NCBI RefSeq assembly: GCF_041435195.1
Contig: NZ_CP108106.1
Coordinates: 2,480,001-2,544,000 of the forward strand
From: Streptomyces sp. NBC_00224
Lineage (GTDB): Bacteria; Actinomycetota; Actinomycetes; Streptomycetales; Streptomycetaceae
Reading direction: 5' to 3'
DNA: 64,000 bases
In this document: positions 615 to 56,393 of the stretch, in pieces
Position numbering within the stretch: the first letter of the stretch is position 1
Layout of the letters: each line of letters starts with the position of its first letter
Made by a program: the position numbers and the translations under genes
The notes under the pieces: model-generated
What the model was told of the DNA's origin: nothing
Databases searched by the model: none
Seen by the model: the letters and a program-made list of their open reading frames with translations, nothing else

Positions 615-684
615 GCGTGCTCCTTGTGAGGACCGATGCGGCGGACGTTACTGAGGGGTACCGCCGGAGGGAAGATGAACACAC

Positions 685-750
685 GTCACCTTTCCCGAAC
701 GTGCGTGACCTTTCCGGAATCACCACAGGGCGACATCACCACAGGGCGAC
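685..750. repeat. Two sets of short direct repeats in the acylase upstream region
   Basis: The 299-base gap 615-913 holds GTSACCTTTCCSGAA twice (685-699 and 705-719, 20-base offset). An exact 16-base tandem, ATCACCACAGGGCGAC, follows at 719-734 and 735-750. Both lie 70-140 bases upstream of the secreted acylase start. Offsets of 16-20 bases are typical of regulator half-sites on one helix face, so this may be a regulatory region, but no regulator is identified. Nothing else is recognised in the gap. Confidence 0.4.
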
Positions 751-913
751 GGAGGCGGGGCGCCCGGAGCACGCGGGGGGCGTGCGACGGTATCCGGTCA
801 GCGCTGCCTGATGGGGCCCATCGGATTTTCGATGGAGCCGGATCGGGTAGCCGTACGTCCATTCCTCGACGCCGAGCATTCGCCGAAGTACGAGTGACGG
901 AGGTGGCAGGGCC

Positions 914-1525
914 ATGGCTGGTTTCCGCAGCCTTGCGAGACAGGTGCGCGACCCAGGGAACGATCTCGCACTGCGCCGGTATTCGCTGCGCAAGTGCCTT
1001 GAACGGTTCGCCCCTTATGGACACCGGGCGACCTGGGACCATCTGTGTGCGGGGCACGGCATCGGGCCGGAGGACCGGGCGCCCGATCCGGCGCGGCTGG
1101 TGGCCGCGCTCGACGAGCTGGAGGCGGCGCGGGCCGTCTGGCTCGGATACGAAGCGGAGTTCGCGGCCCGCAGGAAGCGTGAGAAGCACGCCGGCCTGCG
1201 CAACCCCGGCTCCTTCGACGACTGGCACCGGCGGACCTGGGGCGGTTTCGGGGTCGCCTGGTGCGACGACCCGTCGGTGCATCCGACGCGGCCGCTGGCC
1301 GAGGTGCTCGGCCGGATCATCGCGGCCCTGCGGACGGTGCCGGGCGCGGGTTGCCCGGTGTGCGACGGGCAGGCGCTGGTGTGGCAGCGGGACCTGGCCC
1401 ACGATCCGTGGTGCGGCCCGGTCTGCACGGGCTGCGGAATCCTGGTGCCGCAGCCGGTGCTGACCGCCGAGGCACTGGTGCGCGCCAAGTCGGTACGGCG
1501 CGGAGCGCTGGCATCGGTGGCCTGA
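914..1525 (+). CDS. Hypothetical protein with C-terminal Cys-rich knuckles
   Basis: Conserved-looking protein of 203 residues with no recognised catalytic family. The ATG follows GGAGGTGGCAGGGCC, a good ribosome site. The N-terminal two thirds are Arg- and Trp-rich and soluble, with no signal peptide or membrane segment. Near residues 145-180 are CPVCDG and, after a short loop, CGPVCTGCG, a CxxC...CxxC arrangement that resembles a zinc ribbon. It stands alone: a strong hairpin follows the stop and the next gene is on the other strand. Zinc binding is inference and no function is proposed. Confidence 0.6.
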   Translation: MAGFRSLARQVRDPGNDLALRRYSLRKCLERFAPYGHRATWDHLCAGHGIGPEDRAPDPARLVAALDELEAARAVWLGYEAEFAARRKREKHAGLRNPGSFDDWHRRTWGGFGVAWCDDPSVHPTRPLAEVLGRIIAALRTVPGAGCPVCDGQALVWQRDLAHDPWCGPVCTGCGILVPQPVLTAEALVRAKSVRRGALASVA

Positions 1526-41776: not shown

Positions 41777-41806
41777 ACCATAGACCAATTTTCGAACGTA
41801 CGTGCG
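41777..41806 (-). promoter_or_regulatory. dnaE2 promoter with SOS (LexA) box
   Basis: CGAACGTACGTGCG (41793-41806) matches the actinobacterial LexA consensus CGAACrnryGTTCG at all but one base. A -10 TATGGT (41782-41777) on the minus strand lies 10 bases downstream, so LexA would cover the -35 region. The same box is 104 bases upstream of the divergent membrane-protein gene. Confidence 0.7.
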
Positions 41807-41909
41807 ATGGATGAATGAGCGGCCAGTGCGCGCGACCAGTACGAAGGTCGTCAGCCATTCGGACCAGCCCCGACTGCGCCGCCCTGCCGCGCCCCGGAGG
41901 GTGAGGGGC

Positions 41910-42959
41910 ATGACGTTCGTCGACGAGGTGAAGAGCGCCGTCACCGTGCGGGCCGCACTGCTGGTCACGGGGGTGCTCGGGCTGATGGTCGCGTTCATCG
42001 CGTCCTATGCCGGGGCCTTCCACAGCCCCAAGCCGAAGGACGTTCCGTTCGGGGTGGTCGCACCCGCACAGATCAGCGCACAGGCTGTGCAGCGGCTGAA
42101 CGCGATCCCCGGCGGCGCGCTGGACGCCCGTGCGGTCAAGGACCCGGCCGCGGCCACCCGGCAGCTGCGCGACCGCGACATCGACGGCGCGCTGATCGTC
42201 GACCCGAGGTCCACCACCGACACCCTGCTCGTCGCGGGCGGCGGCGGGGCGTCCCTCTCCCAGGCCGTCGAGCTGGTCGTCACCGCGATCGAGAAGGCCG
42301 AGCAGCGCACCGTGAAGGTGGTCGACATCGCCCCGGCCCACCGGGACGACGCCCGGGGCCTGTCCTCGTTCTACCTGGTCGTCGGCTGGTGCGTGGGCGG
42401 CTATCTGTGCGCCGCGATCCTGGCGATCAGCCATGGCGCCCGGCCCGCCAACACCCAGCGGGCAGTGATCCGGCTCGCCGCCCTCGCGGTGTACTCGATC
42501 GCCGCCGGGCTGCTCGGCGCGCTGATCATCGGGCCGGTGCTCGGCGCGCTGCCGGGCAGCTACCTGGGCCTGGCGGGCCTGGGTGCGCTGGTGGTGTTCG
42601 CGGTCGGCGCCACCACCCTGGCCTTCCAGGGCCTCGCCGGGATCGTCGGCATCGGGCTCGCGATCCTGGTCGTCGTCGTCCTGGGCAACCCGAGCGCGGG
42701 CGGCGCCTATCCGTATCCGCTGCTGCCGCCGTTCTGGAAGGCGATCGGCCCCGCGCTGCCCCCGGGCGCCGGAACCTGGGTGGCGCGCTCCATCGCGTAC
42801 TTCCGGGGCAACGCGGTCACCGGCCCGCTCCTGGTGCTCTCCGCCTGGGCGGTGGGCGGGGCCGTGGTCACCCTGGTCATGGCCGGGCTGCGCAAGAAGG
42901 ACGTACGCGCGGGGGACGACCCGCTCGAAGTCGGCGCGGGGGCCGGGACCGGCGCCTGA
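41910..42959 (+). CDS. ABC-2/YhgE-like membrane protein
   Basis: 349-residue membrane protein. One N-terminal helix (ALLVTGVLGLMVAFIASYAG) is followed by an extracytoplasmic domain of about 150 residues (FGVVAPAQISAQAVQRLNAI onward) and five C-terminal helices (SFYLVVGWCVGGYLCAAILA and later). This resembles the YhgE/Pip and ABC-2 permease superfamily. ATG at 41910 (MTFVDEVKS) has a GAGGGTGAGGG ribosome site. No ATPase is adjacent. It is divergent from dnaE2 and could share the SOS box, which is untested. Confidence 0.75.
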   Translation: MTFVDEVKSAVTVRAALLVTGVLGLMVAFIASYAGAFHSPKPKDVPFGVVAPAQISAQAVQRLNAIPGGALDARAVKDPAAATRQLRDRDIDGALIVDPRSTTDTLLVAGGGGASLSQAVELVVTAIEKAEQRTVKVVDIAPAHRDDARGLSSFYLVVGWCVGGYLCAAILAISHGARPANTQRAVIRLAALAVYSIAAGLLGALIIGPVLGALPGSYLGLAGLGALVVFAVGATTLAFQGLAGIVGIGLAILVVVVLGNPSAGGAYPYPLLPPFWKAIGPALPPGAGTWVARSIAYFRGNAVTGPLLVLSAWAVGGAVVTLVMAGLRKKDVRAGDDPLEVGAGAGTGA

Positions 42960-43050: not shown

Positions 43051-43956
43051 TCATGGAATCGAAGGCGGTTTCGCTGGTGGATCTTCCATTCCTAGATCCG
43101 AATGAGCCTGCGCCCCAGGAGTCTCCGGCTCGGGCACGTCCACCGCGGAAGCGTCCACCGCGGGAGCATCCGTCGCAGGCGCCGCGAAGACCTGCTGCGG
43201 GGCCGCCCGCTCCAGGAACCGCAGCAGCTCCACCGGGAACGGCAGGACCAGCGTCGAGTTCTTCTCGGCCGCCACCGCCACCACGGTCTGGAGCAGCCGC
43301 AGTTGGAGGGCCGCGGGCTCCTTCGACATCACCCCGGCCGCCTCGGCCAGCTTCTTCGACGCCTGGAGCTCCGCGTCCGCGTTGATCACCCGCGCCCGGC
43401 GCTCACGGTCGGCCTCGGCCTGACGGGCCATCGAGCGCTTCATCGTCTCCGGCAGCGAGACGTCCTTGATCTCCACCCGGTCGATCTGCACGCCCCACCC
43501 CATGGCCGGGCTGTCGATCATCAACTCCAGGCCCTGGTTGAGCTTTTCACGGTTGGAGAGCAGATCGTCGAGGTCGCTCTTGCCGATGATCGAGCGCAGT
43601 GAGGTCTGGGCCATCTGGGAGACCGCGAAGCGGTAGTCCTCGACCTGGATGACGGCGTCGGCCGGGTCGACCACCTTGAAGTAGATCACCGCGTCCACCC
43701 GGACGGTGACGTTGTCGCGGGTGATTCCGTCCTGCGCGGGGACGGGCATCGTCACAATCTGCATGTTCACCTTGTGGAGCCGGTCGGCGAGCGGAAGGAT
43801 CAGGGTGAAGCCCGGGCCGCGCACCGATCCCCTGAGTTTGCCCAGCCGGAAGACCACACCGCGTTCGTACTGCTTGACGACCCGGGCCGCCGCCATCACA
43901 TACACGATGCCGGCGGATCCGACGGCCACAGCCGTCGCCACCAATGCCTCGACCAT
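43051..43956 (-). CDS. SPFH/band-7 membrane protein (slipin-like)
   Basis: 301-residue stomatin/slipin protein. One N-terminal helix (ALVATAVAVGSAGIVYVMAA) is followed by the SPFH domain (VVKQYERGVVFRLGKLRGSV to about residue 190, including DVSLPETMKRSMARQAEADR). An Ala/Glu-rich coiled-coil region and a Pro/Ala-rich tail come next. Such proteins oligomerise in membrane microdomains. No NfeD protease gene, the usual slipin partner, is adjacent. ATG 43956 or GTG 43959 could be the start. Convergent with the YhgE-like gene. Confidence 0.9.
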   Translation of the reverse strand: MVEALVATAVAVGSAGIVYVMAAARVVKQYERGVVFRLGKLRGSVRGPGFTLILPLADRLHKVNMQIVTMPVPAQDGITRDNVTVRVDAVIYFKVVDPADAVIQVEDYRFAVSQMAQTSLRSIIGKSDLDDLLSNREKLNQGLELMIDSPAMGWGVQIDRVEIKDVSLPETMKRSMARQAEADRERRARVINADAELQASKKLAEAAGVMSKEPAALQLRLLQTVVAVAAEKNSTLVLPFPVELLRFLERAAPQQVFAAPATDAPAVDASAVDVPEPETPGAQAHSDLGMEDPPAKPPSIP

Positions 43957-44069
43957 CACGGCCCCCAAGGGTCCGAATCGGACGTGTACTTCGACGGTAA
44001 CTCCGCTTCCGTCCCAGGGGGAGTCCCGGTCACACTCCACTGAATGGGTAAAACGCGGGCGGGAGGGGA

Positions 44070-45038
44070 ATGCCGCAACAGTCGATGCCTGTATCCGACA
44101 ACCGGTATGGGCGGTACGAGGACGGTCCCGGCGATCGGTATCGCGACCCACTAGCGGAGGGGGCACGAGTGCGCGGTCGGGTGCGCGCGGCCGACGGGCG
44201 GCATCTGACGGTGGAGCGCTTCGGAGACCCGCGGGGCAGACCGGTCTTCCTGCTGCACGGCACCCCCGGCAGCCGTCTCGGCCCCGCACCCCGCGGCATG
44301 GTGCTCTACCAGCGCCGGATGCAGCTGATCGCCTACGACCGGCCCGGCTACGGCGGCTCCGACCGGCTGGAGGGCCGCAGCGTCGCCGACGTCGTCCAGG
44401 ACGTGAAGGCGATCGCGGACAGCTACGGCCTGGAACGCTTCGCCGTCGTCGGCCGCTCCGGCGGCGCCCCGCACGCGCTGGCCTGCGCGGCCCTGCTGCC
44501 CGAGCGGGTCACCCGGACCGCCGCGCTGGTCACGCTCGCGCCCCGGGACGCGGCCGGGCTCGACTGGTTCGACGGGATGACCGCCTACAACGTGGAGGAG
44601 TTCACGACCGCGTCGGTCAACCCCGAGGAGTTCGCCGCCCGGCTCATCCCGCGCTCGGACGAGATCCGCCGGAACCCCATCCAGCTCCTGGACGAGCTGC
44701 GCCGCGACCTCACCCACGCCGACCGCATGGTGGTCAAGGACGCCGGGGTGCGGTCCATGCTGCTGCGCAACTACCAGGAGGCGCTGCGGACTTCGGCGTA
44801 CGGATGGATCGACGACGCGCTCGCCTTCTGCGGCCCCTGGGGGTTCGACCCGGCCGACATCATCGGCGAGGTGCTGCTCTGGCACGGCGTGAAGGACGTG
44901 TTCTCGCCGGTCGGCCACTCCCGCTGGCTCGCCGAACGCATCCCGGGCGCCACGGCCGTCCTGGAGCCGACCGCCGCCCACTTCGACGCCCTGCACGCGC
45001 TGCCCGACATCCTCACCTGGCTCATCGAGGAGGACTGA
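44070..45038 (+). CDS. Alpha/beta-hydrolase
   Basis: 322-residue alpha/beta-hydrolase, cytoplasmic. VFLLHGTPGSRLGPAP gives the oxyanion region, VVGRSGGAPHALACAA the nucleophile elbow (Ser130), and TAAHFDALHAL the catalytic His; the Asp is likely in LWHGVKDVFSP. An unusual charged N-terminus with Tyr-Arg-Asp repeats (residues 10-27) precedes the fold. The ATG follows GGGAGGGG. It is divergent from the SPFH gene. Substrate unknown; members include epoxide hydrolases, esterases and proline iminopeptidase-like enzymes. Confidence 0.9.
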   Translation: MPQQSMPVSDNRYGRYEDGPGDRYRDPLAEGARVRGRVRAADGRHLTVERFGDPRGRPVFLLHGTPGSRLGPAPRGMVLYQRRMQLIAYDRPGYGGSDRLEGRSVADVVQDVKAIADSYGLERFAVVGRSGGAPHALACAALLPERVTRTAALVTLAPRDAAGLDWFDGMTAYNVEEFTTASVNPEEFAARLIPRSDEIRRNPIQLLDELRRDLTHADRMVVKDAGVRSMLLRNYQEALRTSAYGWIDDALAFCGPWGFDPADIIGEVLLWHGVKDVFSPVGHSRWLAERIPGATAVLEPTAAHFDALHALPDILTWLIEED

Positions 45039-45118: not shown

Positions 45119-48100
45119 TCACACCGCGAGCGGCTCCAGGTCCCGCTGCACCCTGCGCTCGTCCCTGGCGATCCGGACGAACGCGTGCTCGTCGCCGAGC
45201 AGTCGCTGCAGCTCCTCCACGGCCTCCGCCCGCACGTGCAGCGCCTCCTCCTTGCGGCCGAGCCCGTCGAGCGTCACCGACATGTTCGCGGCGCAGGCGA
45301 GCGTCTCGGGGTGGTGCGCTCCCAGCACCTCCCGCAGCCGCGCGACCGCGTTGCGCTCGATCTCCAGGGCGCTCTCCAGATCGCCCATGTCGGCCTTCAC
45401 ATTGGCCAGGTTGACGGTGGCGAACAGCGCGTGCGGATGGTTCTCCCCGAGTATGTCGCGCATGGTCCGTATGGTCGTCTCCAACAGGGTGTCGGCGGAG
45501 TCGAGTGCCCCGCAGCCCCACTGGTAGATGCCCAGGTTGTTGCTGGCCGCCAGCGTGTACGGGTGCCGCTCCCCCGGCACCTTGATGTACTGGTCGACGA
45601 CCTCCTGGGCCGCGTCCCGGGCCGCCGCCGAGTCCCCGGCCGCGAACAGGTCGGCGGCCATGTTGAGGTCGCAGGCCAGCCAGTCGGGGTTGGCGGAGGT
45701 GTACTTGGCGCGGTAGCGGTTGCGGGTCGCGGTGGTCAGCCGGCGCGCGTCGTCGAGCCGGCCCGCCCGGCGCAGCGACACGGCGAGGCTCTTGGCCGCC
45801 GCCAGGGTGCCAGGGAAGGCCCGGCCCAACTGCTCCTTGTAGAGGTCGTACGTCCGGCTGAGCAGCGCCACCGAGTCCTCGTAGCGCCCGATCTCCCGCA
45901 GGTCCCGCGCCAGGTTCATCGCGGAGGAGAGGGTGTACGGGTGCTCCGGGCCGAGCACCTCGGTGCGCCGGTCGTAGACGTCCTGGTCGAGCTCGCGGGC
46001 CCGGGCGTACTGGCCGAGCATCCGCATGTTCAGGGCGAGGTTGTTGGCGGCGGCGAGCGTGCGCGGGTGCGACTCGTCGAAGATCTGCCGGAACCCCTCG
46101 TGCGCCTCGGTCGCCAGCTCCATCGCCTTGCTGTACTGGCCGAGCGCCCCGAGGTCCATCGCGAGGGCGCTGGTGGTCATGTACGTGTGCGGATGCGTGG
46201 CGCCGAGCACTTCCGTCTGGCGGGCCAGGGTCTCCTCGTCCAGCTCCATCGCCTCGACGTAACGGCCGCGCGAGCGAAGGATGTTGGAGAGGTGGAAGCG
46301 CAGGTACAGGTACTGGAGGTCGTTGGGCCCCAGTTTCTCGCGCCACTCCTCGCGCAGGTCCTCGGCGAGGTTGGCGGCCGCGTTGAAGTCACCGCGCTTC
46401 CACAGATAGCGCACGCGGTCGATGAGGAGCCGGCGGGTCTCCGGCTCGTCGCACAGACGCGCCCCCGACGGGGTCAGATGCGGCCAGATGGTGTTGAACT
46501 GCGCCCAGGTCTCCGGGTTGTCGATCGGCTCGTCGGCGTCCGGCCGGGCGCCCGCGAGGATGCGGTGCACGGCGTGCCGGGCGTCCATCTGCTCCTCGTC
46601 GCTCAACTGCGCCCGGATCACCGCCTGGACGAGCCGGTGCACCTGGATGGAGCTGCCGACCTGGTCGACCTTGGCGAGGGCGAACCGGCCGATCTCCCGG
46701 ATGACCCGGCCGAGCACCAGCTTCTCCTGGAGCGTGGCGTCGTACGGCTTGAGCGCGTCGATCATCTCCTTGCTGTAGAGGAGATTGGCGGAGATCGGCT
46801 CGGGCGCGAAGAAGGCGCAGAGCTGGAGCAGCCGGACCGCCGCGGGCGATCGCTGCTTCAGCCGCTCGATGGAGACGTTCCAGGTGGCGGCGACCGGCTC
46901 GGGGTATCCGGCGGGCTGGTTGAGCGCGAGGACGCTGGGGGCCTGCTGGGCCAGCTGCTCCAGATAGGCGGCGACCGGCGTCGCGGTCTCCGCGATCCAC
47001 GCCGCCGCCTGCTCGACGGCGAGCGGCAGGTCACCGACCGCGGTGGCGACCTGGTCGGCGTCGTCCACGGTGAGCCCGGGGGCGCGCCGCTGGAGGTGCT
47101 CGATGGACTCCTCGCGCAGGAACACGTCGACGGGCAGCGCGTCGCCGTACTGCGACCAGGTCTGGTTCCTGGAGGTCACCAGGACGTGGCCCGGGCCGCC
47201 CGGCGGGAAGAACCGCTTGAGCTGCTCGGGGTCGTCCGCGTTGTCGAAGACCAGCAGCCAGCGCGAGGTGGGCACCCCGCGCCGCAGCAGGTCGATGGCC
47301 TCGCGGGAGGCGGAGTTCATGTCGTCGCCGCCCTGCACCCCGAGCCGTACGCCGAGCTCGGCGAGGCCGGCCACCACGTCGTCGGGCTGCTCGGCGGAGA
47401 TCCACCAGACCAGGTCGTAGTCGGCCATGAACCGGTGGACGTACTCCAGGGCCACCTGTGTCTTGCCGACGCCGCCGAGTCCGTACAGCGTCTGCGGCTG
47501 CGGCAGGACGACGGCGAGGCCGCCGCCGAGCTGGTCGCGCATCCGCTCCAGGACCAGCGAGCGGCCGGTGAAGCCGGGGTTGCGCGGCGGCGCGTTCCAG
47601 ATCTTGGGGACGGTGCCGGGGAACCGCGGTCCGGGCGCCACCCCGTCGCTGATCTGCACCGGCCGCTCCAGGGCGCGCAGCAGCGCGGTGGTGGCGTGCA
47701 CCTCGTCGAGCCGGAACAGGTCCACCGGGTTGCGGTCGATGTAGGGCGCGGTGAGCCGTACGTCTCCGACGCGCAGCGGCAGCAGCTGGCGGCGGGCACC
47801 CGAGGGGTCCTCGGCGGCGGCCCGGGACCAGATCTCCACGGCGCGGGCCGACTTGAGGTAGGCGCTGGAGATCAGGACGACGGTACGGGCCGCGTTCTCG
47901 GCGGCGACCGCCTCCCCGTCGGCGCTGCTGGGCTCGGCCGACACGTCGCGGGGCACCACCCGGAACCCGGCCCGGGTCAGCACGGACTCGATCCAGTCGG
48001 CCCACATCCGGTTCTCGGCCACATAGCTGAGGAACAGATCGGCCGGAAGTGCGGGCCTGCGGCGGGTGAAGGCGTCCCGGATCCGCAGCCGGATCTCCTC

Positions 48101-49054
48101 GTTGACGGTCGGCATCGAGGTGATCCGGCCCTCGGTGACGACGGAGGCGAGCCGCTCGAAGGCGGAGAGCAGCGAGTTGGAGAGCCCGGCCTCGTCGCCG
48201 AAGGTCGCCAGCGTCTCCTCGTAGGCGTAGTAGGGGCGGTACGGGATCTCCACCGCGCCCCAGTACGCGGTGAGTTCGTCGCCGGAGAGCCCGGCCGGGA
48301 AGCGGTCGAACTTGAGGCGGGCGAGCGCCCGGCCGGCGTCCGCCTTCTCCTTCTCGCCCTCGTCGATGCGCATGGGGACGGGCAGGATGCGGATGTTCTG
48401 CCCGCTGTAGCGCTCGTCTATCTGGCGGGCCACGGAGGCGGCGCCGTCTATGGACTGGTCGCTGAGGGTGAAGCAGTCCACCAGGACGTCGGGGAGGTGG
48501 ACGGTGCAGATGTCGGCGATGTCGCTGAGGCCGGTGCGGCTGTCGATCAGTACGTAGTCGTAGTTCTCCTTCATGTCCTCGCGCAGGGCGTCGAAGAAGT
48601 GGCCGCCGCCGAGCCGGTCGTAGAAGTTGTCCCAGTCGAACGTGGAGACGGTCGCCGAGTACTCGCGGTTCTGCCGGCCGGCGGAGACGAAGTCCAGGGT
48701 GCCGCCGTCGGGGAACTGCCAGCCCAGGGCCTCGGGTGTGAGCGAGACGGCGTGCGGCTGGATGCGCGCGTAGTCGCGGTGCCAGTCGTCCGAGCGCGGC
48801 ACGGGACTGGTGGCGGCCCAGGCGTATTCGGTGATGAGATCGATGACCCCGGTGGTGGCACCGAGCGTCGAGGGGTCGAGGAAGGGGTGGAAGAAGCGGT
48901 GCAGCCCCGGGGCCTCCAGGTCCCAGTCCACCGCGAGGACCCGCTTGCCGTTGGCGGCAAGGATCCAGGCCGTGTTGGCGAGGGCCATGGTGCGGCCCGT
49001 ACCACCCTTGTACGAGTAGAACGTGACGATGCGTCCGTCACGACTGGCTGTCAT
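45119..49054 (-). CDS. fxsT: FxSxx-COOH system protein FxsT: ParA-like, TIR, NB-ARC and TPR domains
   Basis: 1311-residue multidomain protein. Residues 1-320 are a ParA/MinD-type ATPase (FYSYKGGTGRTMALANTAWI, deviant Walker A at residues 16-22). About 335-470 is a TIR-like domain (LFLSYVAENRMWADWIESVL). About 500-800 is an NB-ARC/STAND NTPase with GLGGVGKTQ near residue 525 and VFDNADD. From about 880 to the end come some ten TPRs, several with the TLxxxxNLAxxL pattern of 42-residue repeats. ATG at 49054 has GGAGGA 6 bases upstream and overlaps fxsC by 17 bases. This is the architecture of immune-type STAND sensors. Its function in the Fxs system is unknown. Confidence 0.88.
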   Translation of the reverse strand: MTASRDGRIVTFYSYKGGTGRTMALANTAWILAANGKRVLAVDWDLEAPGLHRFFHPFLDPSTLGATTGVIDLITEYAWAATSPVPRSDDWHRDYARIQPHAVSLTPEALGWQFPDGGTLDFVSAGRQNREYSATVSTFDWDNFYDRLGGGHFFDALREDMKENYDYVLIDSRTGLSDIADICTVHLPDVLVDCFTLSDQSIDGAASVARQIDERYSGQNIRILPVPMRIDEGEKEKADAGRALARLKFDRFPAGLSGDELTAYWGAVEIPYRPYYAYEETLATFGDEAGLSNSLLSAFERLASVVTEGRITSMPTVNEEIRLRIRDAFTRRRPALPADLFLSYVAENRMWADWIESVLTRAGFRVVPRDVSAEPSSADGEAVAAENAARTVVLISSAYLKSARAVEIWSRAAAEDPSGARRQLLPLRVGDVRLTAPYIDRNPVDLFRLDEVHATTALLRALERPVQISDGVAPGPRFPGTVPKIWNAPPRNPGFTGRSLVLERMRDQLGGGLAVVLPQPQTLYGLGGVGKTQVALEYVHRFMADYDLVWWISAEQPDDVVAGLAELGVRLGVQGGDDMNSASREAIDLLRRGVPTSRWLLVFDNADDPEQLKRFFPPGGPGHVLVTSRNQTWSQYGDALPVDVFLREESIEHLQRRAPGLTVDDADQVATAVGDLPLAVEQAAAWIAETATPVAAYLEQLAQQAPSVLALNQPAGYPEPVAATWNVSIERLKQRSPAAVRLLQLCAFFAPEPISANLLYSKEMIDALKPYDATLQEKLVLGRVIREIGRFALAKVDQVGSSIQVHRLVQAVIRAQLSDEEQMDARHAVHRILAGARPDADEPIDNPETWAQFNTIWPHLTPSGARLCDEPETRRLLIDRVRYLWKRGDFNAAANLAEDLREEWREKLGPNDLQYLYLRFHLSNILRSRGRYVEAMELDEETLARQTEVLGATHPHTYMTTSALAMDLGALGQYSKAMELATEAHEGFRQIFDESHPRTLAAANNLALNMRMLGQYARARELDQDVYDRRTEVLGPEHPYTLSSAMNLARDLREIGRYEDSVALLSRTYDLYKEQLGRAFPGTLAAAKSLAVSLRRAGRLDDARRLTTATRNRYRAKYTSANPDWLACDLNMAADLFAAGDSAAARDAAQEVVDQYIKVPGERHPYTLAASNNLGIYQWGCGALDSADTLLETTIRTMRDILGENHPHALFATVNLANVKADMGDLESALEIERNAVARLREVLGAHHPETLACAANMSVTLDGLGRKEEALHVRAEAVEELQRLLGDEHAFVRIARDERRVQRDLEPLAV

Positions 49055-50378
49055 CCGTCTCCTCCGCATCGGGCGCGTGATCGAGCCTGTCGGGGATGTA
49101 CTGCGTGGTGCCGAAATCGGTGCCCATCGGCCCGACCAGGCGCGGCCGTTCGGTGTGCCCGCCCCCCGCGGGCGGATAGACCGTCGCGTGTCTCAGATAC
49201 TGCTGTGCCGCCGCCTCCACGACCTGGGGCAGTATCTGCCCGAAGGCCTCCATGCTGGGTACGCCCTTGGCTGCGGCCCGGCACGCGGCCCGCCCCTGGC
49301 GCATCTTGGACGGCATGGTCTCTTCCAGACGGTGCGTCAACTCCACCTCCGATGCCCGGCTCTGGGTGTCGTCGCGGTTCCAGGGGACGACCACGCTCAC
49401 CCAGGGCCGGTGCTCGGCGTCGAAGGCCGCGAGCCGGGCGCGCCGGTCCTCGTCCTCCAGCGCCCACCGGTCCACCAGCAGGACCTCGGGCCGCGACGGC
49501 GGCTGCTTGCCGTCGAGGTGCAGCACCTCCTCGTCGAAGGAGGAGACGGTGGTCTGGTAGTTGAGCGAGCGCACCATGTCCTCCGCCACCAGCGCCAGCG
49601 GCCGGGCGGAGATGGGGTGATAGGGATTCCACTCCAGCGGGCTCTCCCCGTAGTACGCGTCGTCGCGGCCCTCGGGCAGTTCGTGCCGGGTGGGCGCGGC
49701 GACGGTGACGTGCATGGGGCGTGGGCCCTCGCTGGGGGCCGCGCCGAAGGCGCTGGGCGCCAGCCGGTAGTCGACGTGGCGGCCGGGCCTGATCGCGGTG
49801 GCGTCGGCGACGCTGACGATGCGTTTGGCGAGCTCGTAGACCGCGCGTTCGTACTCCTCGGCGAATATGCGCAGCTTGATCAGCCCGTAGAGGCCGTCGG
49901 TGACGTAGCGGTCGCCGAAGGCCCGGTGGTTGAACTGCAACCGCTCGGCGGGCCCGGGCAGTTGCTCGGGCGGGACCGGCACCCACAGGGCCGGCACGAT
50001 CGCCTCGGCCGGGCGGTTGGTGTATGCCTGGTGCTGGATGGTGCGCTGCTCGAACGCGTACCACTCACGGCCGCACATCTCGCTCGCGAAGTAGCGCGGC
50101 GAGAACAGCGGCACGAACACCCGGCAGGAGGCGAGGACTTCGCCGAGGCGCTCCGACCAGCCCTCGCCGGACCGTATCTCCCGGTCCATGAAGCCGGCGG
50201 GCGCACCGGCGGGCAGGTCGGTCATGGCCATCACATGGCCGCAGAGATCACGGAAGAGCCGCTCCACCCACATGTCGGGGTCCGGGCCGCCCGCCCCGTA
50301 CCTCGGCGTGTGCGCGTAACTCAGAAAGAAGTAGGGCCGATGTTGGTCGGCCGGACGCGGCTGCGCTGATGCGTGCAC
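49038..50378 (-). CDS. fxsC: TIR-like protein FxsC
   Basis: 446-residue protein of the FxsC family. The N-terminal half is a TIR-like fold: PYFFLSYAHTPRYG starts strand A, FMDREIRSGEGW and LASCRVFVPLFSPRYFASEM follow. The C-terminal half (about residues 230-400) has no recognised domain but contains VLLVDRWALEDEDRRARLAAF. No signal peptide or membrane segment. GTG start at 50378. It overlaps fxsT and follows aac(3) by 60 bases, a gap holding a 7-bp hairpin. TIR domains may cleave NAD or act in protein contact; a conserved catalytic Glu cannot be assigned by eye. Confidence 0.85.
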   Translation of the reverse strand: MHASAQPRPADQHRPYFFLSYAHTPRYGAGGPDPDMWVERLFRDLCGHVMAMTDLPAGAPAGFMDREIRSGEGWSERLGEVLASCRVFVPLFSPRYFASEMCGREWYAFEQRTIQHQAYTNRPAEAIVPALWVPVPPEQLPGPAERLQFNHRAFGDRYVTDGLYGLIKLRIFAEEYERAVYELAKRIVSVADATAIRPGRHVDYRLAPSAFGAAPSEGPRPMHVTVAAPTRHELPEGRDDAYYGESPLEWNPYHPISARPLALVAEDMVRSLNYQTTVSSFDEEVLHLDGKQPPSRPEVLLVDRWALEDEDRRARLAAFDAEHRPWVSVVVPWNRDDTQSRASEVELTHRLEETMPSKMRQGRAACRAAAKGVPSMEAFGQILPQVVEAAAQQYLRHATVYPPAGGGHTERPRLVGPMGTDFGTTQYIPDRLDHAPDAEETDDSQS

Positions 50379-50415
50379 ACGACCCCCGTCCTGCAGTATT
50401 GAAGAACATCATTCC

Positions 50416-50432
50416 GGAGCGCACGGCGCTCC
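50416..50432 (-). other. Small hairpin between aac(3) and fxsC
   Basis: GGAGCGC-ACG-GCGCTCC is a perfect 7-bp stem with a three-base loop in the only gap longer than 30 bases within the fxs operon. It may be a processing or attenuation site that sets lower fxsC-fxsT expression. Confidence 0.4.
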
Positions 50433-50438
50433 ATCCCC

Positions 50439-51257
50439 TCACCGTTCGGTCAAACAAGGCCGCTTTTCGGTCATCCAGTCCACCGCATGGTCCACCGCCC
50501 CCTTGATCGAAAACAACCGGGCGGTTCTCCGTCCCAGCTGCCACTCTTTGCGCATTTCTTCCGGAAGGTCGGCCCCGACCGCCTCGAAGTCGCTGTCGTC
50601 GAGATCGACGTCGGGATAGTGGAACCATCCCCGACGCCCACTCTCGTCCCGCACCACACAGCTGTACAGCTTCTTGGGCGGGTTGCGCAGATACCGGTAT
50701 TCCGCGAGGTGAAAGGCGCTGCAGACACCGAATCCCACATTGATCATGAGTACCCGGGCCCCGGCGCGATACAGCGCGCCGACCGGCGACTTCTCGCCCA
50801 GATGACAATCGGGTTCATGCCCCTCCATCAGCTCCAGGGCACGGCAGCCCCAGGCAGCGAAGGACGTCTGGGGATGGGTGCTGCGCACCGCCCCTTCCGA
50901 GGTGCGCACCCACTCCGCCAACCGGCCCATTCCCTGACTTCGGGTCCGGTCCGGGTCGAAAGGCTCCATTCTGCGCTTGAAATCCTTGTACGCGGCCGGA
51001 TCCCGCAGCACGTTCCTGCTCCGCCGCCGGTGGGCAGTGGAGGTGAGCGAGTTCTCCGCCGTGAAGGCCGGGACCACCAGGGTGCCCTTGAGCCGACCAC
51101 CGACCACCGTCTGCAGGGCCTGCCCCAGCACGCGCGGGCCGTGCCCCAGACCGCTCATTGAGGCGTGCACGAGCAGGGTGTCCCCCTCGTTGATCCCCAT
51201 GGCGACCAGGTCGTCGAGTAACGCGCTCTCCAGCACTGCTTGGGCTCGCTCATCCAC
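50439..51257 (-). CDS. AAC(3)-family N-acetyltransferase within the fxs operon
   Basis: 272-residue acetyl-CoA-dependent acetyltransferase of the antibiotic AAC(3) fold. It has the N-terminal GDTLLVHASMSGLG, TLVVPAFTAENS, the active-site motif VRSTHPQTSFAAWG (His128) and CSAFHLAEYRYL, all typical. The GTG start overlaps the fxsB stop by 8 bases, so it is translationally coupled to the peptide maturase. That context argues against a simple aminoglycoside-resistance role and for acetylation of the peptide or a partner molecule. The true substrate is unknown. Confidence 0.88.
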   Translation of the reverse strand: MDERAQAVLESALLDDLVAMGINEGDTLLVHASMSGLGHGPRVLGQALQTVVGGRLKGTLVVPAFTAENSLTSTAHRRRSRNVLRDPAAYKDFKRRMEPFDPDRTRSQGMGRLAEWVRTSEGAVRSTHPQTSFAAWGCRALELMEGHEPDCHLGEKSPVGALYRAGARVLMINVGFGVCSAFHLAEYRYLRNPPKKLYSCVVRDESGRRGWFHYPDVDLDDSDFEAVGADLPEEMRKEWQLGRRTARLFSIKGAVDHAVDWMTEKRPCLTER

Positions 51258-53487
51258 GGGCTGCCTCTTCCCACTCCACCAGGACGTCGGCGACCAGGCT
51301 CTTCCCGCCTACGGTGAGTTCGGCCGCCCCCTGAAGAGCTTCCAGCGCCCGCCGGGTCTCCGCCAGAGTGCGTGCACTCCTGTCGTACGCGGCGACCGCC
51401 ACCCGCTCATGTGTTTCGGCCAGCAGGACCGAAACCGGCACCGGCTCTTCACGCCAGTCGGCCGGGTGGAGCCAGCCGCCGTCCAGGGCGTACAGGTCCG
51501 CCACATCGCGCAGGGCCCGGAACCTGGCCCTGCGGAAGCCTCGCAGCAGCCCCAGCGCCAACGCGTCCCCCGTGAGCCCCACGGGCACCCCCAGTGCCCC
51601 GTAGCCGTGCCGCCCGGCCACCGGTTCGCCGGCGCCCGCGAGCGGGGTGAGCGTGGTCAGCGCGGCGGCCGCGGCGGCCGCGTGGCCCGGCACAGTGGCC
51701 GAGAGCAGCCCCCAGGCGGCGCCCAGACGCCCGCTCCACTCGTCGGCCTCGGCGAGACCCAGACGCGGCAGCACCTGTGTGCCGAAGCAGTCGCGGTACG
51801 GGTCGAGGTCGTCGAGCGCCGGATCGGGCGCCCCGTCCCGGCCGAGGCCCCGCACCGGCAGCCAGTCGCCGCACGGCTCGCGCGGGCACTCCACCTCCAG
51901 CTCGAAGCGCTCGCCCCGGACCCGGAAGCCCTTCTCGGCCGAGACCACCCGCGCGCGGCCGGACTCGCCCGGGGCGCCGACCCTCAGCTCCCCGAGGGTG
52001 GGCAGCACCAGCCTGCCGTCCGCGTACCCGACGGTGACGGGCACGTCGAGCCTGCCGCGGACGGCGGCGGCCGCGGTGTAGGCGGCAAGGCGGTGGGCGT
52101 GGGCGACGGCGTCGGGCCGGCCCGTGCGCAGCGCCTGAAGGGTGGTGAGCAGCCAGCCGCGCGCGTACGGATGCGTCAGCACCTCGTCGAGGCCCGGCCC
52201 GTCGACTAGGGCGGTCAGCCGCCAGGCCTCGGCCCACTCGGGACCGCCGCGTCCGGCCAGATCGGCGTGGAGGCGGGCGAGCAGGGTGCGGGTGAGTTCG
52301 TGCTCGGCCGCGACGAGTTCACCGGGGTCGGTGACGGCGCCGGGGACGAGGCGGGCGGCCGTGCGGGTCTCGATGCCCCGCACCAGCGCCTCCAGGTCCG
52401 CGCAGTAGACCGAGGGCCCGTCGAAGGCGCCCCTGCCCGCCGTCTCGTTCGCCGAGCGGTAGCGGTGGGTGTAGAGCCCGCCGCCGCAGGAGCGGACGAC
52501 CGGGCACTGTCTGCACTCGGGTCCGACCCCGGCCAGGCCGAGCTGGCGCACCCGTACCCCTGGATGGGCGGCGACCTCGTCGAAGGAGTGCCGGAAGACG
52601 TCAAACCCGGTGGCGGCCGCGCCTTCGTAGGCGCTCTTGAGCGAGTCGACCTGTTCCAGGGTGCCGTCGGTCTCCACCACCACGAGGTCGGTGGGGGCCA
52701 GGCCCAGGGACTCGGTGAGGCTGGGGCCGCCGTTCAACGTCGACAGTACGGACTCGAACAGCCGGACCGGAACCGGTCTGCCCTGTTCCTCCCACCGGTC
52801 GAAGACCGCCAGGATCCACTCGGCGTACTCGGTCGGGGAGCCGCCCGGCCGGGCCGGGGGCGCGTCCCAGGTGGCGTGCGGCAGCAAGTAGTCGATGCGC
52901 GGCGGGTCCAGGGCGATGAGCGCGTCATGGACGGTGACCGGGTCGTTGGCCACGTCGATGGTGCAGAGCAGCCCGAGGAAGAGGTGGCGGTAGCGCTCGC
53001 TGCGGAGCAGTTCGACGGCCTTCAGGACCAGGGGATGGCTGGTGCGGCCGTCGGCGAAGCGGCGGTGGCGGTCGTTGGCCGACCGGTCGCCGTCGAGGGA
53101 GATGCCGACCCTGACGCCGAACTCGTCGAACAGGTCGAGGTAGCGGCTGCTGAGCTGGAGGCCGTTGGTGTGGATGCGCAGATCGAGCTCCGCGACGCCG
53201 TCGAGGGCGGCGGTCAGCTCCTCGCACACCCGGCGCAGCCTGGCGGGGCCCGCCAGCAGCGGCTCCCCTCCGTGCAGGATCACTGACACGGAGGGCAGTA
53301 CGTGTTTCTCGGCGTGCTCGGCCAGTCGCCGGGCCGTCCATGAAATCGCCTCGTCAGAGATTGCCTTGGGGCGGGTACGCCAACTCTGATCAGGGGCTTC
53401 GTAGATATAGCAGTGATCACAAGCAAGATCGCATCTGCTGTGAACCTTGAGCACGATCTCGCGGAATGGGACCACGGGTCCAGTCAT
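51250..53487 (-). CDS. fxsB: FxsB radical SAM/SPASM peptide maturase
   Basis: 745-residue radical S-adenosylmethionine enzyme predicted to crosslink the FxsA peptide. The [4Fe-4S] cluster motif CDLACDHC (Cys19, 23, 26) is followed by HGGEPLLAG and SLDGDRSANDRHRR. A SPASM-like Cys cluster, CRQCPVVRSCGGG, lies near residue 325. The C-terminal 350 residues resemble HEXXH-type maturase domains in their helical pattern. At the expected zinc motif, however, the sequence is LLRGFRRARFRALRDVADLY (about residues 645-665), so metal ligands are lost. It starts 27 bases after fxsA. Family members make Phe-containing three-residue cyclophanes. Confidence 0.9.
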   Translation of the reverse strand: MTGPVVPFREIVLKVHSRCDLACDHCYIYEAPDQSWRTRPKAISDEAISWTARRLAEHAEKHVLPSVSVILHGGEPLLAGPARLRRVCEELTAALDGVAELDLRIHTNGLQLSSRYLDLFDEFGVRVGISLDGDRSANDRHRRFADGRTSHPLVLKAVELLRSERYRHLFLGLLCTIDVANDPVTVHDALIALDPPRIDYLLPHATWDAPPARPGGSPTEYAEWILAVFDRWEEQGRPVPVRLFESVLSTLNGGPSLTESLGLAPTDLVVVETDGTLEQVDSLKSAYEGAAATGFDVFRHSFDEVAAHPGVRVRQLGLAGVGPECRQCPVVRSCGGGLYTHRYRSANETAGRGAFDGPSVYCADLEALVRGIETRTAARLVPGAVTDPGELVAAEHELTRTLLARLHADLAGRGGPEWAEAWRLTALVDGPGLDEVLTHPYARGWLLTTLQALRTGRPDAVAHAHRLAAYTAAAAVRGRLDVPVTVGYADGRLVLPTLGELRVGAPGESGRARVVSAEKGFRVRGERFELEVECPREPCGDWLPVRGLGRDGAPDPALDDLDPYRDCFGTQVLPRLGLAEADEWSGRLGAAWGLLSATVPGHAAAAAAALTTLTPLAGAGEPVAGRHGYGALGVPVGLTGDALALGLLRGFRRARFRALRDVADLYALDGGWLHPADWREEPVPVSVLLAETHERVAVAAYDRSARTLAETRRALEALQGAAELTVGGKSLVADVLVEWEEAARG

Positions 53488-53514
53488 TCCGCCAGTCTAG
53501 AGCTCTCCGACAGA

Positions 53515-53682
53515 CTAGAGAGCCGAGTTGAAGGTCGACGCCTGCACGGGGCGACCGATCGACGAGGGCAGCACGCGGCCGAGCTTCCTGGCGGCGTCCG
53601 CACCGCGGACGTCGATGTCTGCCAGGGGCACACGGCTCTTCTTCGCAGGGGCGAAGGAGAGAGAATTCACGGAGGTCTTCAC
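53515..53682 (-). CDS. fxsA: FxsA precursor peptide, FxSxx-COOH RiPP
   Basis: 55-residue precursor peptide. GTG at 53682 has AGGAC 5 bases upstream and begins VKTSVNSLSFAPAKKSRVPL. The middle, ADIDVRGADAARKLGRVLPS, is a leader region typical of the family, and the C-terminus is STFNSAL. FNSAL is exactly the FxSxx-COOH motif: Phe51, Ser53 and two residues to the free carboxylate. A Phe51-Ser53 cyclophane made by FxsB is the family-based expectation. It is short and easily missed. A TTGCCA/TAAAGT promoter lies about 75 bases upstream. Confidence 0.88.
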   Translation of the reverse strand: MKTSVNSLSFAPAKKSRVPLADIDVRGADAARKLGRVLPSSIGRPVQASTFNSAL

Positions 53683-53758
53683 GGCCGTCCTTGATGGGTA
53701 ATTCCTGCATGTGGACAGTGGTACCGACGACATGCACCGTTGCAGTGTCGGCGGCACG

Positions 53759-53786
53759 ACTTTACTCTCTTGGCCACTGTTGGCAA
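53759..53786 (-). promoter_or_regulatory. Promoter of the fxsA-B-aac-C-T operon
   Basis: On the minus strand TTGCCA (53786-53781), a 16-base spacer and TAAAGT (53764-53759) form a good vegetative-type promoter, predicting a leader of about 70 bases before fxsA. On the other side of the gap, GGAACG-GGT-CGTTCC (53841-53855) is a perfect inverted repeat before the SLATT gene and may be an operator. Confidence 0.5.
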
Positions 53787-53889
53787 CTGAGCACGACCGC
53801 TTGCCGCAAACGCGTGACCCAGCATTGGCGGAAGGTGTACGGAACGGGTCGTTCCATCGAAAGAGTGATGACTAAAACCGCAGACAGGG

Positions 53890-54831
53890 GTGGATGTGAC
53901 GGCGATTCCCGGTCCTCTGCAAAGCATGGTCTTCCGCAACGCCGACCTGCCGGGTCTCTTCCATCACGCGGACTCACTCGCGATAGGGCGCCAGCGGGCC
54001 GCGGTGAACAGCACCCGCTGGCAGTTGTGCCTGCTGGTGGTGGGGGCGGCGCTGGCGGCACTGCCGTGGAAGATGACGCTCGGTGGTGACTTCCAGCTGA
54101 CCAGCGCGCTCAGCGCACTGGCGTACGCGGGGGTGCTCGCGGTGAGCTTCCGCGCTGCCCGCGGGCATGCGAAATCGCATTGGCAACTGAACCGTTCGGC
54201 GGCCGAGTTCATCAAATCCATGTGCTGGCGCTATGCCGTGCACGGCACCCCCTTCGATTCCCAGGCACCCGATCCCGAAGGTCTGTTCACCCTCCGTCTG
54301 GAGGAAGGACTGCGGGAGTTGCGCAAGGTCGGCTGGCGGGATCCGCGCGAGGACCGGGCGTCGGGCCTGGCCGATGTGCCCCTCATCACCGCGCCCATGC
54401 GGGAGTTACGGGCGAAGGCGTTCACCGTACGCAAGGAGACCTACGTCCGGGACCGGCTGATCGAGCAGCGCAACTGGTACCGGCGCCGCCAGGAGGCCTC
54501 CAAGCGGGCCACCGCGCTGTGGACCTCGGCAATCACCCTGCTCACCGTTCTCGCGTTGCTCTTCGCGACGCTGCACATGTTCGGCGCGGCCCAGGACGTC
54601 AAGGTCGCCGGGCTGCTCTCGGCCGCGGCGGCCGCGTGTCTGGCGTGGAGCGAGATCCGCCGCCACCAGCCGCTGATCTCGGCGCACTCCCTGGTGGAGC
54701 AGGACCTCAAGGAGATGCACGTGGCCATGGAGAACACGGTCAGCGAGCGGGAGTGGCCGGGCGCGGTCTACGAGACCGAGCGGGTCGTGTCGCCCCAGCA
54801 CACCGACTGGCTGGTCCGGCTCCGCAGTTGA
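53890..54831 (+). CDS. SLATT/DUF4231-type membrane protein
   Basis: 313-residue protein with two pairs of membrane helices (WQLCLLVVGAALAALPW and ALSALAYAGVLAVSF; TSAITLLTVLALLFATLHMF and AGLLSAAAAACLAWSEI), each followed by an amphipathic charged helix (RDRLIEQRNWYRRRQEASKR). This is the SLATT fold (SMODS- and SLOG-associated two-helix effector), proposed to form pores when a nucleotide-sensing partner is activated. A SLOG gene is the next gene, converging 17 bases away. GTG 53890 or GTG 53896 could start it; AGGGG lies 5 bases before the latter. Divergent from fxsA. Confidence 0.75.
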   Translation: MDVTAIPGPLQSMVFRNADLPGLFHHADSLAIGRQRAAVNSTRWQLCLLVVGAALAALPWKMTLGGDFQLTSALSALAYAGVLAVSFRAARGHAKSHWQLNRSAAEFIKSMCWRYAVHGTPFDSQAPDPEGLFTLRLEEGLRELRKVGWRDPREDRASGLADVPLITAPMRELRAKAFTVRKETYVRDRLIEQRNWYRRRQEASKRATALWTSAITLLTVLALLFATLHMFGAAQDVKVAGLLSAAAAACLAWSEIRRHQPLISAHSLVEQDLKEMHVAMENTVSEREWPGAVYETERVVSPQHTDWLVRLRS

Positions 54832-54848
54832 TCGCCCCGGACGGGGCG

Positions 54849-55328
54849 CTACGGGCGGCGCACCCCGTCGCACCACACCACCGTGACCGACTTGCCCAGG
54901 CCACGGGCGTACTGGACGATGTCGCCGGTGCCGCCGAGCCCCCGCGCGGGCTGGCCGTCCCAGACGGCGACCAGACGGTCGCAGTTGTCCGCGATATAGG
55001 CGCCGGCCGCGTAGTACGCCTCGTCCGTCGCGTGCGGGAAGTCCATCCGGACCTCCTGCGTGGCCTGTCCCCTCAGCCCCTGGTAGCGGGCGAGTTCGGC
55101 GGCGTCGGCGAAGCCGTTCTCGTAGTCGCCGCTGGGAATGACCACGGTCAGGGAGGCGCCGCACTCCAGGGCGATGGCCGCGAACAGCTGGTCCGCGCCG
55201 ACCGCGAGGCTGGAGAGGGCCTCCAGGGAACCGTCGTGTCCGCACAGCAGGCTCCGCAGACAGGTGCGGATCTCCCCCAGCGCCTCGGAGGGAATGTCTC
55301 GGTGACCGGTCACTCCGATGCGTTTCAC
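54849..55328 (-). CDS. SLOG-domain protein, probable nucleotide-derivative sensor
   Basis: 159-residue Rossmannoid protein of the SLOG (SMF/LOG) superfamily. RIGVTGHRDIPSEAL (Gly-His-Arg motif), ALSSLAVGADQLFAAIALE and ARGLGGTGDIVQYARGLGKS supply the ligand-binding loops. It is a stand-alone domain with no nuclease or effector fused. In SLOG-SLATT pairs the SLOG protein is proposed to sense or process a nucleotide ligand and trigger the membrane partner. GTG at 55328 has GGGGTGA 6 bases upstream. The gap 55329-55487 holds a terminator. Confidence 0.75.
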   Translation of the reverse strand: MKRIGVTGHRDIPSEALGEIRTCLRSLLCGHDGSLEALSSLAVGADQLFAAIALECGASLTVVIPSGDYENGFADAAELARYQGLRGQATQEVRMDFPHATDEAYYAAGAYIADNCDRLVAVWDGQPARGLGGTGDIVQYARGLGKSVTVVWCDGVRRP

Positions 55329-55487: not shown

Positions 55488-56393
55488 TCAGAAGAGACTG
55501 ACGCCATAGGCGTTCATGGCCTCGACCACGGGCTGGAAGAAGGTCGTGCCGCCGGAGGAGCAGTTGCCGCTGCCGCCGGAGGTGAGGCCCAGCGCGGTCG
55601 AGCCGGCGTAGAGCGGGCCGCCGGAGTCGCCGGGCTCGGCGCACACCGTGGTCCTGATCAGGCCGTACACGATGTCACCGCCGCCGTAGTTGACGGTGGC
55701 GTTGAGCGCGGTGACCCGGCCGCTGTGGATGCCGGTGGTCGAGCCTCGCCGGGTGACCGTCTGGCCGACCGTGGGGTTGGCCGCGCTGCTGATGTGCTGG
55801 CTGCCCACGGCACTCGGGTGGGCCAGCGAGGTGTTCGTGTACTGCACGAGGCCGTAGTCGTTGCCCGGGAAGCTGGTGCCGACCGTCGGGCCGATGCTCG
55901 TCGCGTGCGAGGAACTGGTGTACCAGGGCGGCTTGCCCTCGGTGCAGTGACCGGCCGTCAGGAAGTAGTAGGTGCTGCCCTTCTTGACGTTGAAGCCGAG
56001 GGAGCAGCGCCAGCTCGGCGCGTAGATGGCGTCGCCGCCGGAGAGCAGCTTGCTGAACTTGCCGGGGGTCCGCTCGACGCGTATGGCGGACGCGTTGGCT
56101 CCGGCCTGCCGCTTGATCTTGGCTATGTCGGCCTTGCTGACGGTGGAGTCGGCGGTCACGACCAGCGTGTGGGTGGCGGGGTCGACGCTCCAGGCGGTGC
56201 CCGCGACGTCGGCGCCGAGCACGGCGCTGCTCGCGGCGGAGAGTTGGGTGGCGCTGAACACCTGGGACGGGGTGGCACTTGCGGTGGGGACCGCGAGTGC
56301 GCCGGCGGCGAGGAGCCCTGCGGTAAGGGCGACTGCCTTGGTGCGTCTCGCGAGACCGCGGTGGCGGGTGGGGGTGGTGCGCTTGATCCTCAC
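55488..56393 (-). CDS. Secreted S1-family serine protease with alpha-lytic-type propeptide
   Basis: 301-residue chymotrypsin-like protease related to Streptomyces griseus proteases. A signal peptide (about 1-43, [20 protein letters not shown]) and a short alpha-lytic pro-domain (to about residue 120) precede the mature enzyme, which starts near [15 protein letters not shown]. The triad is His149 (TAGHCTEG), Asp179 (GNDYGLVQY) and Ser257 (GDSGGPLY). Cysteine pairs match the two disulphides of the family. GTG at 56393 has GAGGAA 5 bases upstream. A CAAGCGCTTG palindrome lies in its promoter region. Confidence 0.95.

Follow-up and report, generated by a model that had tools for sequence, protein, structure and literature searches.

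We analysed a 64,000-nucleotide stretch of the Streptomyces sp. NBC_00224 genome (contig NZ_CP108106.1, positions 2,480,001 to 2,544,000, forward strand; hereafter the window, with a GC content of 72%), in which a standard FxSxx-COOH locus, made up of fxsA, fxsBH, an AAC(3)-like gene, fxsC and fxsT, lies together with a gene for a SLATT_3 plus SLATT_1 protein and a gene for a SLOG protein (Table 1). A preliminary description of this DNA had pointed out that the fxs block is joined to SLATT and SLOG genes, and this observation holds: FxsA, FxsB, FxsC, FxsT and SLATT all scored above the curated cut-offs of their families, and the SLOG assignment is backed by a structure model. The fxs genes are spaced as in an operon, with 27 bp between fxsA and fxsB, an 8 bp overlap of fxsB with the AAC(3)-like gene, 60 bp between the latter and fxsC, and a 32 bp overlap of fxsC and fxsT; the SLATT and SLOG genes converge, 17 bp apart.

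Table 1. The fxs-SLATT-SLOG block and the adjoining hydrolase gene, in window coordinates
Feature	Position	Strand	Support or remark
Alpha/beta hydrolase	44070..45038	+	Pfam Abhydrolase_1; far side of fxsT, outside the interval of the preliminary description
fxsT, putative STAND sensor/switch	45119..49069	-	NF040586 1067 bits, NF047398, TIR_2, NB-ARC, TPR
FxsT domains	residues 13-217, 346-456, 494-1314		ParA-like, inactive (13-217); degenerate TIR (346-456); NB-ARC + TPR (494-1314)
fxsC, TIR-like, candidate NAD-cleaving enzyme	49038..50378	-	NF040588, TIGR04276, TIR_2 E 1.8e-8
AAC(3)-like acyltransferase	50439..51257	-	Antibiotic_NAT E 2.7e-64; under the AAC(3) equivalog cut-off
fxsB(H), radical SAM/SPASM maturase	51250..53487	-	TIGR04269 575 bits (cut-off 370), NF040587 413 bits
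fxsA precursor, 55 aa, C-terminus STFNSAL	53515..53682	-	TIGR04268 39.6 bits (cut-off 28); start GTG at 53682
Divergent control region, 207 bp	53683..53889	none	Between fxsA and SLATT
SLATT_3 + SLATT_1 membrane protein, predicted pore-forming effector	53890..54831	+	SLATT_3 (PF18184) E 1.8e-40, SLATT_1 (PF18181) E 1.7e-35; NCBIfam NF033610 and NF033634 also over cut-offs
SLOG (YpsA-like) protein, 159 aa, predicted nucleotide-ligand sensor	54849..55328	-	SLOG fold in structure model

The association of SLATT-SLOG with fxs genes is real, recurrent and not local, as it is seen across many genomes and in many gene orders and fxs lineages. When 150 genomes of the same genus were searched with the window SLATT protein at an E-value of 1e-20 or better, matches were found in 46, of which 42 were at 43% identity or more and four at about 30%; FxsB, at 1e-60, was found in 94. 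Forty-one loci besides the window were fetched and mapped, giving 42 in all, and fxs genes stand beside SLATT in 41 of these close-relative loci, that is in 41 of all 46 SLATT matches if the four distant relatives (G064, G077, G086, G118), which are not in fxs loci, are counted as misses and G028, whose contig ends inside fxsB, is counted as linked. The adjacency, which the preliminary description had proposed to look for in other genomes, is hence not confined to this one. The exception is L058 (in G057), where no fxs gene was found with SLATT-SLOG at the usual site and another FxsBH is about 463 kb away. SLOG accompanies SLATT in all 42 loci, at a distance of 1.5-11 kb in three of them (L055, L056, L091). 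A second draw, in which the public SLATT_3 model was run against 296 class-level genomes (58 of them with FxsB above cut-off), returned 14 genomes with SLATT_3: nine of the same genus, all with FxsB within about 8 kb, and five of other genera without FxsB. The two draws overlap in the source genome and G056, and seven of the nine same-genus genomes are new. That the coupling might be confined to Streptomyces, going by those five genomes, was rejected because fxsB occurs with SLATT and SLOG in Streptosporangium (L220), Microbispora (L231), Hamadaea (L223) and Actinomadura (L249), where SLOG is codirectional with SLATT.

Many of the group-1 loci occupy one chromosomal site, flanked alike by S1 protease and DUF1684 genes, and synteny must therefore be discounted in weighing these counts. 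More telling are the loci that depart from this arrangement. Eight of the 42 (L075-L082) have the fxs operon in reversed orientation between the hydrolase gene and SLATT, with SLATT following fxsT. In another 11 (group 2, L083-L093) the DUF1684 flank is absent, and a different flank (families f8, f14 and f15) is common to five of these; L098, near group 2 in the FxsT tree, shares f14 and f15 and yet has neither SLATT nor SLOG. The FxsT proteins of three deep-lineage loci (L083, L160, L164) share 35-46% identity with each other and with the remaining FxsT proteins and are outermost in a midpoint-rooted tree, in which they form long branches (the tree was built in quick mode), whereas their SLATT proteins are 53-73% identical to those of group 2 and are grouped with them at a 100/100 branch, within which the order is not resolved. 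Gene orders differ as well, L164 reading A-C-T-B-aac-SLATT and L083 having SLATT divergent from aac-A-B-C-T.

Tree comparisons agree with a coupling that is partly independent of descent. Partial Mantel correlations given rpoB were 0.85 for SLATT with FxsB (n=38) and 0.88 for SLATT with SLOG (n=41), and 0.45 and 0.47 for SLATT with FxsT and FxsC, respectively (n=37, both including L083). Among the 22 group-1 genomes that have the locus at the same site and contain all the genes compared, SLATT correlated with FxsC at 0.89, with FxsT and SLOG at 0.75 each, and with FxsB at 0.68. The flank controls in these genomes were 0.56 for SLATT, 0.59 for FxsC, 0.34 for SLOG, 0.25 for FxsT and 0.23 for FxsB, each against DUF1684, and since these are above zero, part of the agreement between trees is due to linkage alone.

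The preliminary description had also given weight to the 207-base control region shared by fxsA and SLATT. As a strict requirement this is rejected by the eight inverted loci. The region does contain, in an alignment of 12 divergent loci, a conserved block of about 45 bp holding the promoter-like, TAAAGT-type sequence AGTAAAGTCGTGC on the fxsA strand (53754-53766, minus) and, on the side towards SLATT, a GGAAC-N5-RTTCC dyad. The control-region motif matches once in the window versus zero matches expected; within the 900 bp preceding fxsB, TAAAGT is present in the window and in all 29 of the other fxsB-containing group-1 loci, and in none of the 11 group-2 loci. A block of this type upstream of fxsA is also retained in the inverted loci. 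The palindrome TTGGCCACTGTTGGCAA in the window, considered as an operator, was rejected because relatives do not conserve it. A gene of family f13, encoding hydrophobic stretches, sits between fxsA and SLATT in five loci (L057, L061, L064, L068, L069), and a sixth member was found in L094.

What SLATT may respond to is suggested by its neighbours away from fxs genes. Among the five other-genus SLATT_3 loci of the second draw, Pfam places a ThsB_TIR gene beside SLATT in two (L169, L171), a third (L168) has a ThsB_TIR-like open reading frame adjoining SLATT, recognised by eye, and a TIR-STAND-TPR gene, and no ThsB_TIR gene was present among the genes scanned in L170 and L167. A profile search of genome contigs with an alignment of four fxs-free SLATT_3 proteins was then used, and the best 80 of 84 relatives (L179-L258), which include at least two places that had supplied profile seeds (L179, L216), were examined. 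Of the 80 loci, 34 have a ThsB-type TIR gene next to SLATT_3, as judged by a profile built up from three ThsB-type TIRs, the E-values of such an iterated profile being flattering; in 28 it is directly upstream on the same strand, in 27 at 4-42 bp. These loci are mostly actinobacterial, with one each from a Chloroflexi and a Deltaproteobacteria metagenome-assembled genome (L251, L225). Matches to an FxsC-type TIR profile in 19 of the 80, many near 1e-8 to 1e-10, were excluded from the 34, and a wider count of any TIR within 400 bp of SLATT_3 (46 of 80) was not used; none of the four profiles applied matched in 29 loci. In two Actinoallomurus loci (L227:4992-8535 and L230:4965-8532) SLATT, TIR and SLOG genes form an operon, and no fxs gene was detected; the TIR protein keeps WCxRE and the SLOG protein, of the same family as that of the window, keeps GxD. 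This operon looks like a minimal Thoeris-like system. TIR-SLATT is thus a recurring theme, TIR-SLATT-SLOG exists independently of fxs, and it is on these grounds that FxsC is placed upstream of SLOG and SLATT in the model below. Other arrangements were seen in passing: three Actinomadura loci (L249:6493-8493, L253:6349-8286, L256:6562-8520) have SLATT-SLOG followed by a methyltransferase-domain protein, whose N-terminus in L249 matches PADLOC mad2 (E 5e-11) and a TIR effector model (E 2e-6), and in an actinobacterial metagenome-assembled genome (L218:2458-4089, minus) an open reading frame with a RyR domain overlaps the SLOG match beside SLATT.

The block encodes two TIR-like proteins, and conservation of the catalytic glutamate, assigned by the canonical motif, separates them. 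In FxsT this column holds V, L, I, A or T in 56 of 56 sequences, with a variable acidic or amide residue one position earlier, so that FxsT was rejected as a TIR enzyme. Its ParA-like domain, of KGGVGR type, reads KGGTGR at the P-loop in 95% or more of 49 sequences, and the NB-ARC P-loop GLGGVGKT is intact and conserved. With the TIR glutamate lost, the ParA-like domain inactive and the NB-ARC P-loop preserved, FxsT looks like a switch rather than a TIR enzyme. FxsC, in contrast, retains the motif SPxYFxSxxCGxEW, its E105 (at 50064-50066 in the window) being kept in 55 of 56 sequences; the sole departure is from a locus without SLATT (L100). As this glutamate persists even though FxsC identity falls to 23-36% in deep fxs lineages, selected catalysis is suggested, and FxsC, not FxsT, is the candidate TIR enzyme, for which cleavage of nicotinamide adenine dinucleotide (NAD+) is predicted from the sequence. 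A search of the PDB with the FxsC sequence gave no match, and its predicted structure (predicted local distance difference test score 57.8) returned TIR domains among weak matches in a fold search, none at E 0.001 or below.

In the window SLATT protein three hydrophobic segments are clear, and 2-6 were counted across 51 relatives, the family expectation being two transmembrane helices per SLATT unit. The model fold of the SLOG protein is nearer to YpsA and DprA than to LOG enzymes, and its G64-A65-D66 corresponds to the GxD/E that the relevant passage of PMC6459960 gives as the signature of the YpsA-like SLOG clade, with G and D present in 51 of 51 sequences; no match to it was obtained in a PDB sequence search. 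A passage of PMC11256431 on a transglycosylase of Streptomyces with a SLATT-like domain was considered and set aside as unrelated.

At the peptide end of the locus, precursors similar to FxsA are present in related loci, and C19, C23 and C26 of FxsB are conserved. Going by NCBIfam names, we take FxsB to be a cyclophane-forming maturase, and its NF040587 match stands for an inactivated HExxH extension. An HExxH motif is absent from the window FxsB and from those of SLATT-bearing loci; HEFQH is confined, among 53 FxsB proteins, to those of L101, L103, L104 and L106, loci in which SLATT was not found (L103 being on a short contig). The source genome has two further fxsB loci, at C1:2005949-2007052 (L104) and 6055799-6056947 (L105); HEFQH is intact in one of the two FxsB proteins, and SLATT is absent from both loci over the 20 kb fetched. 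Endings of FxsA correlate with SLATT presence in a way that is confounded with phylogeny. The AAC(3)-like protein conserves H128, H147, H183 and E186 in 20 sequences, and its gene is missing in many relatives. The alpha/beta hydrolase, whose S130/D276/H304 triad is kept in 29 of 29 sequences, lies near fxs in 18 of the 20 SLATT-less FxsBH loci examined (it was missed in L112 and on the short contig of L103) and is missing from the three deep-lineage SLATT loci; that it processes the peptide is a guess.

Around the block, the S1 protease gene (55488-56393, minus; alpha-lytic/streptogrisin type) adjoins SLOG in many group-1 loci and was not seen in group 2. Beyond the hydrolase are genes for a Band 7/SPFH protein (43051-44289, minus) and, 2 kb past the block, a YhgE/ABC-2-like membrane protein (41802-42959, plus) with sub-cut-off matches. 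Rfam and tRNA scans of the window and a PHROGs search, the latter with two weak matches only, gave no lead for the block, and no vWA or MoxR gene, as in the VMAP or vWA-MoxR ternary system, was found among 20 window proteins scanned (33182 to 63429).

Taken together, it is quite possible, and we tentatively favor, that this is an FxSxx peptide/STAND system with a SLATT-SLOG output cassette, in which FxsT activates FxsC and an NAD-derived signal acts on SLOG or SLATT, most plausibly aborting phage infection. FxsB would cross-link FxsA into a short cyclophane peptide, which the AAC(3)-like enzyme may cap and the hydrolase may release; the mature peptide, or its lack, would set the state of the NB-ARC/TPR switch of FxsT, the peptide's role being the least supported step. 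Firing of FxsT would render FxsC active, NAD+ would be cleaved, the product would be bound by the YpsA-like SLOG protein, by SLATT or by both, and SLATT would open or disrupt the membrane and stop the cell. It is residue conservation and gene context that point to a chain from FxsC through SLOG to SLATT. We are more doubtful of the full version, in which a radical-SAM cross-linked peptide licenses an NLR-like FxsT, whose FxsC partner produces a messenger read through SLOG by SLATT, the whole being an exchangeable actinobacterial cassette with Thoeris-like output under the control of a ribosomally synthesized and post-translationally modified peptide (RiPP). The preliminary description had likewise read the block as a conflict module, and the STAND, TIR, SLOG and SLATT parts and published predictions are consistent with that, with the correction that the TIR domain of FxsT is degenerate and the glutamate is in FxsC. 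Two findings weigh against our reading: many fxs loci have no SLATT at all, and in ten of these the one upstream gene scanned in each encoded no obvious effector, which goes some way towards what the preliminary description had named as damaging to the idea, namely relatives without an effector-like partner.

A different role, in development or envelope stress, is less likely in our view, and has several observations on its side. The FxS peptide would be an internal or kin signal and SLATT a stress-gated protein that does not kill, with FxsT acting as an AfsR-like switch. Inheritance of group-1 loci, at one site, largely follows the species marker (r to rpoB of 0.82-0.85 for SLATT, FxsB and FxsT), no plasmid record matched SLATT at 1e-20, SLATT has a weak PspM-like match (E 1e-4, 22.3 bits vs a cut-off of 80), and genes adjoining SLATT-less loci are mostly metabolic or regulatory; such a role, however, sits poorly with the Thoeris-type TIRs that adjoin SLATT_3 elsewhere, with the patchy presence of SLATT (46 of 150 genomes) in a cassette that switches fxs partners, and with FxsB-like genes, below 60% identity, in 18 plasmid records. 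Shared descent at one chromosomal site could also have left SLATT-SLOG beside fxs as a mere passenger, as the common flanks of many group-1 loci and the tree agreement partly common to DUF1684 would allow. We regard this as very improbable, given that group 2 has other flanks, that deep fxs lineages, other genera and other gene orders carry the cassette, and that it is retained after operon inversion.

That modified FxsA is a secreted toxin or bacteriocin, to which SLATT-SLOG, with FxsC and FxsT, provides immunity or sensing, strikes us as improbable. The RiPP-type precursor with its conserved C-terminal F-x-S-x-x end, the maturase, the YhgE/ABC-2-type protein nearby, and the "peptide toxin or signal" allowed for in the FxSxx passages of Kaur et al. 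2020 (PMC7159879), which cite Haft & Basu 2011, all fit such a role, but family scans recognised no transporter or export gene inside the block, no hydrophobic segment passed the threshold used in FxsT, FxsC or SLOG of the window, and many loci making the same kind of peptide have no SLATT. Within the circuit itself the SLOG protein could act as an off-switch, by degrading or sequestering the TIR product, with SLATT sensing the signal directly. Convergence of SLOG with SLATT in the 42 first-draw loci would permit separate control, most ThsB-SLATT pairs lack a nearby SLOG match, and degrading roles are proposed for viral SLOG domains in passages of PMC9503650; the YpsA/DprA-like fold argues the other way, as does a LOG-type catalytic glutamate that is not visible at the expected place (compared with the motif by eye), and we consider an off-switch rather unlikely.

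In comparison with known systems, the fxs core had already been described in 2020, and the coupling to SLATT-SLOG extends a known predicted conflict system with an effector arm. The preliminary description knew of no established role for Fxs proteins; a role as conflict systems had in fact been proposed by Kaur et al. 2020, whose passages on FxSxx describe a standalone type that combines a TIR-AP-ATPase with an inactive MinD/ParA-like domain. Our locus fits that type in its core genes, the inactive domain and the TIR on the AP-ATPase, and differs in that SLATT-SLOG, the AAC(3)-like gene and the hydrolase are unmentioned there, the SLATT passages of the same paper being concerned with GTPase-centred systems. 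No FxS system joined to SLATT or SLOG, and no experimental role for one, was found in the portions of the open-licence literature searched. With Thoeris (ThsB TIR plus ThsA) the locus shares a TIR protein with catalytic glutamate and a SLOG domain, and SLATT_3 elsewhere is often beside ThsB-type TIRs, but here SLOG is separate and YpsA-like, the effector is SLATT, and RiPP and STAND parts are added; there was no PADLOC Thoeris match among seven window proteins, no ThsB_TIR Pfam match among ten, and no SIR2 or Macro domain in ten local proteins scanned. Passages of PMC9503650 state that YpsA-like SLOG domains include sensors of cyclic ADP-ribose and that TIR genes adjoin SLATT genes in firmicute phages, with predicted gating by ADP-ribose derivatives as in our model; a peptide, FxsT and a SLOG partner are not described in them. 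SLATT is likewise an obligate partner of a phage-defence enzyme in DRT10 (PMC12632851, a preprint, in the part concerned with this requirement) and an occasional one in DRT9 (PMC12483538, in the part noting SLATT), where the product is that of a reverse transcriptase and not of a TIR, and those parts make no mention of SLOG or RiPPs. Among the window proteins scanned no established PADLOC defence system was matched; the ParA-like part of FxsT matches PADLOC family PDC-M28B (E 1.1e-23), which we take to be a phage-defence candidate class.

The recurrent association described here suggests a previously unrecognised peptide-controlled circuit for self-defence or self-killing. Linkage to SLATT-SLOG gives FxS systems a concrete, testable output and indicates FxsC, not FxsT, as the enzyme. 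If the proposed circuit is true, it would be an unusual case of TIR signalling governed by a modified peptide together with an NLR-like protein, and would bear on how bacterial immune switches are licensed.

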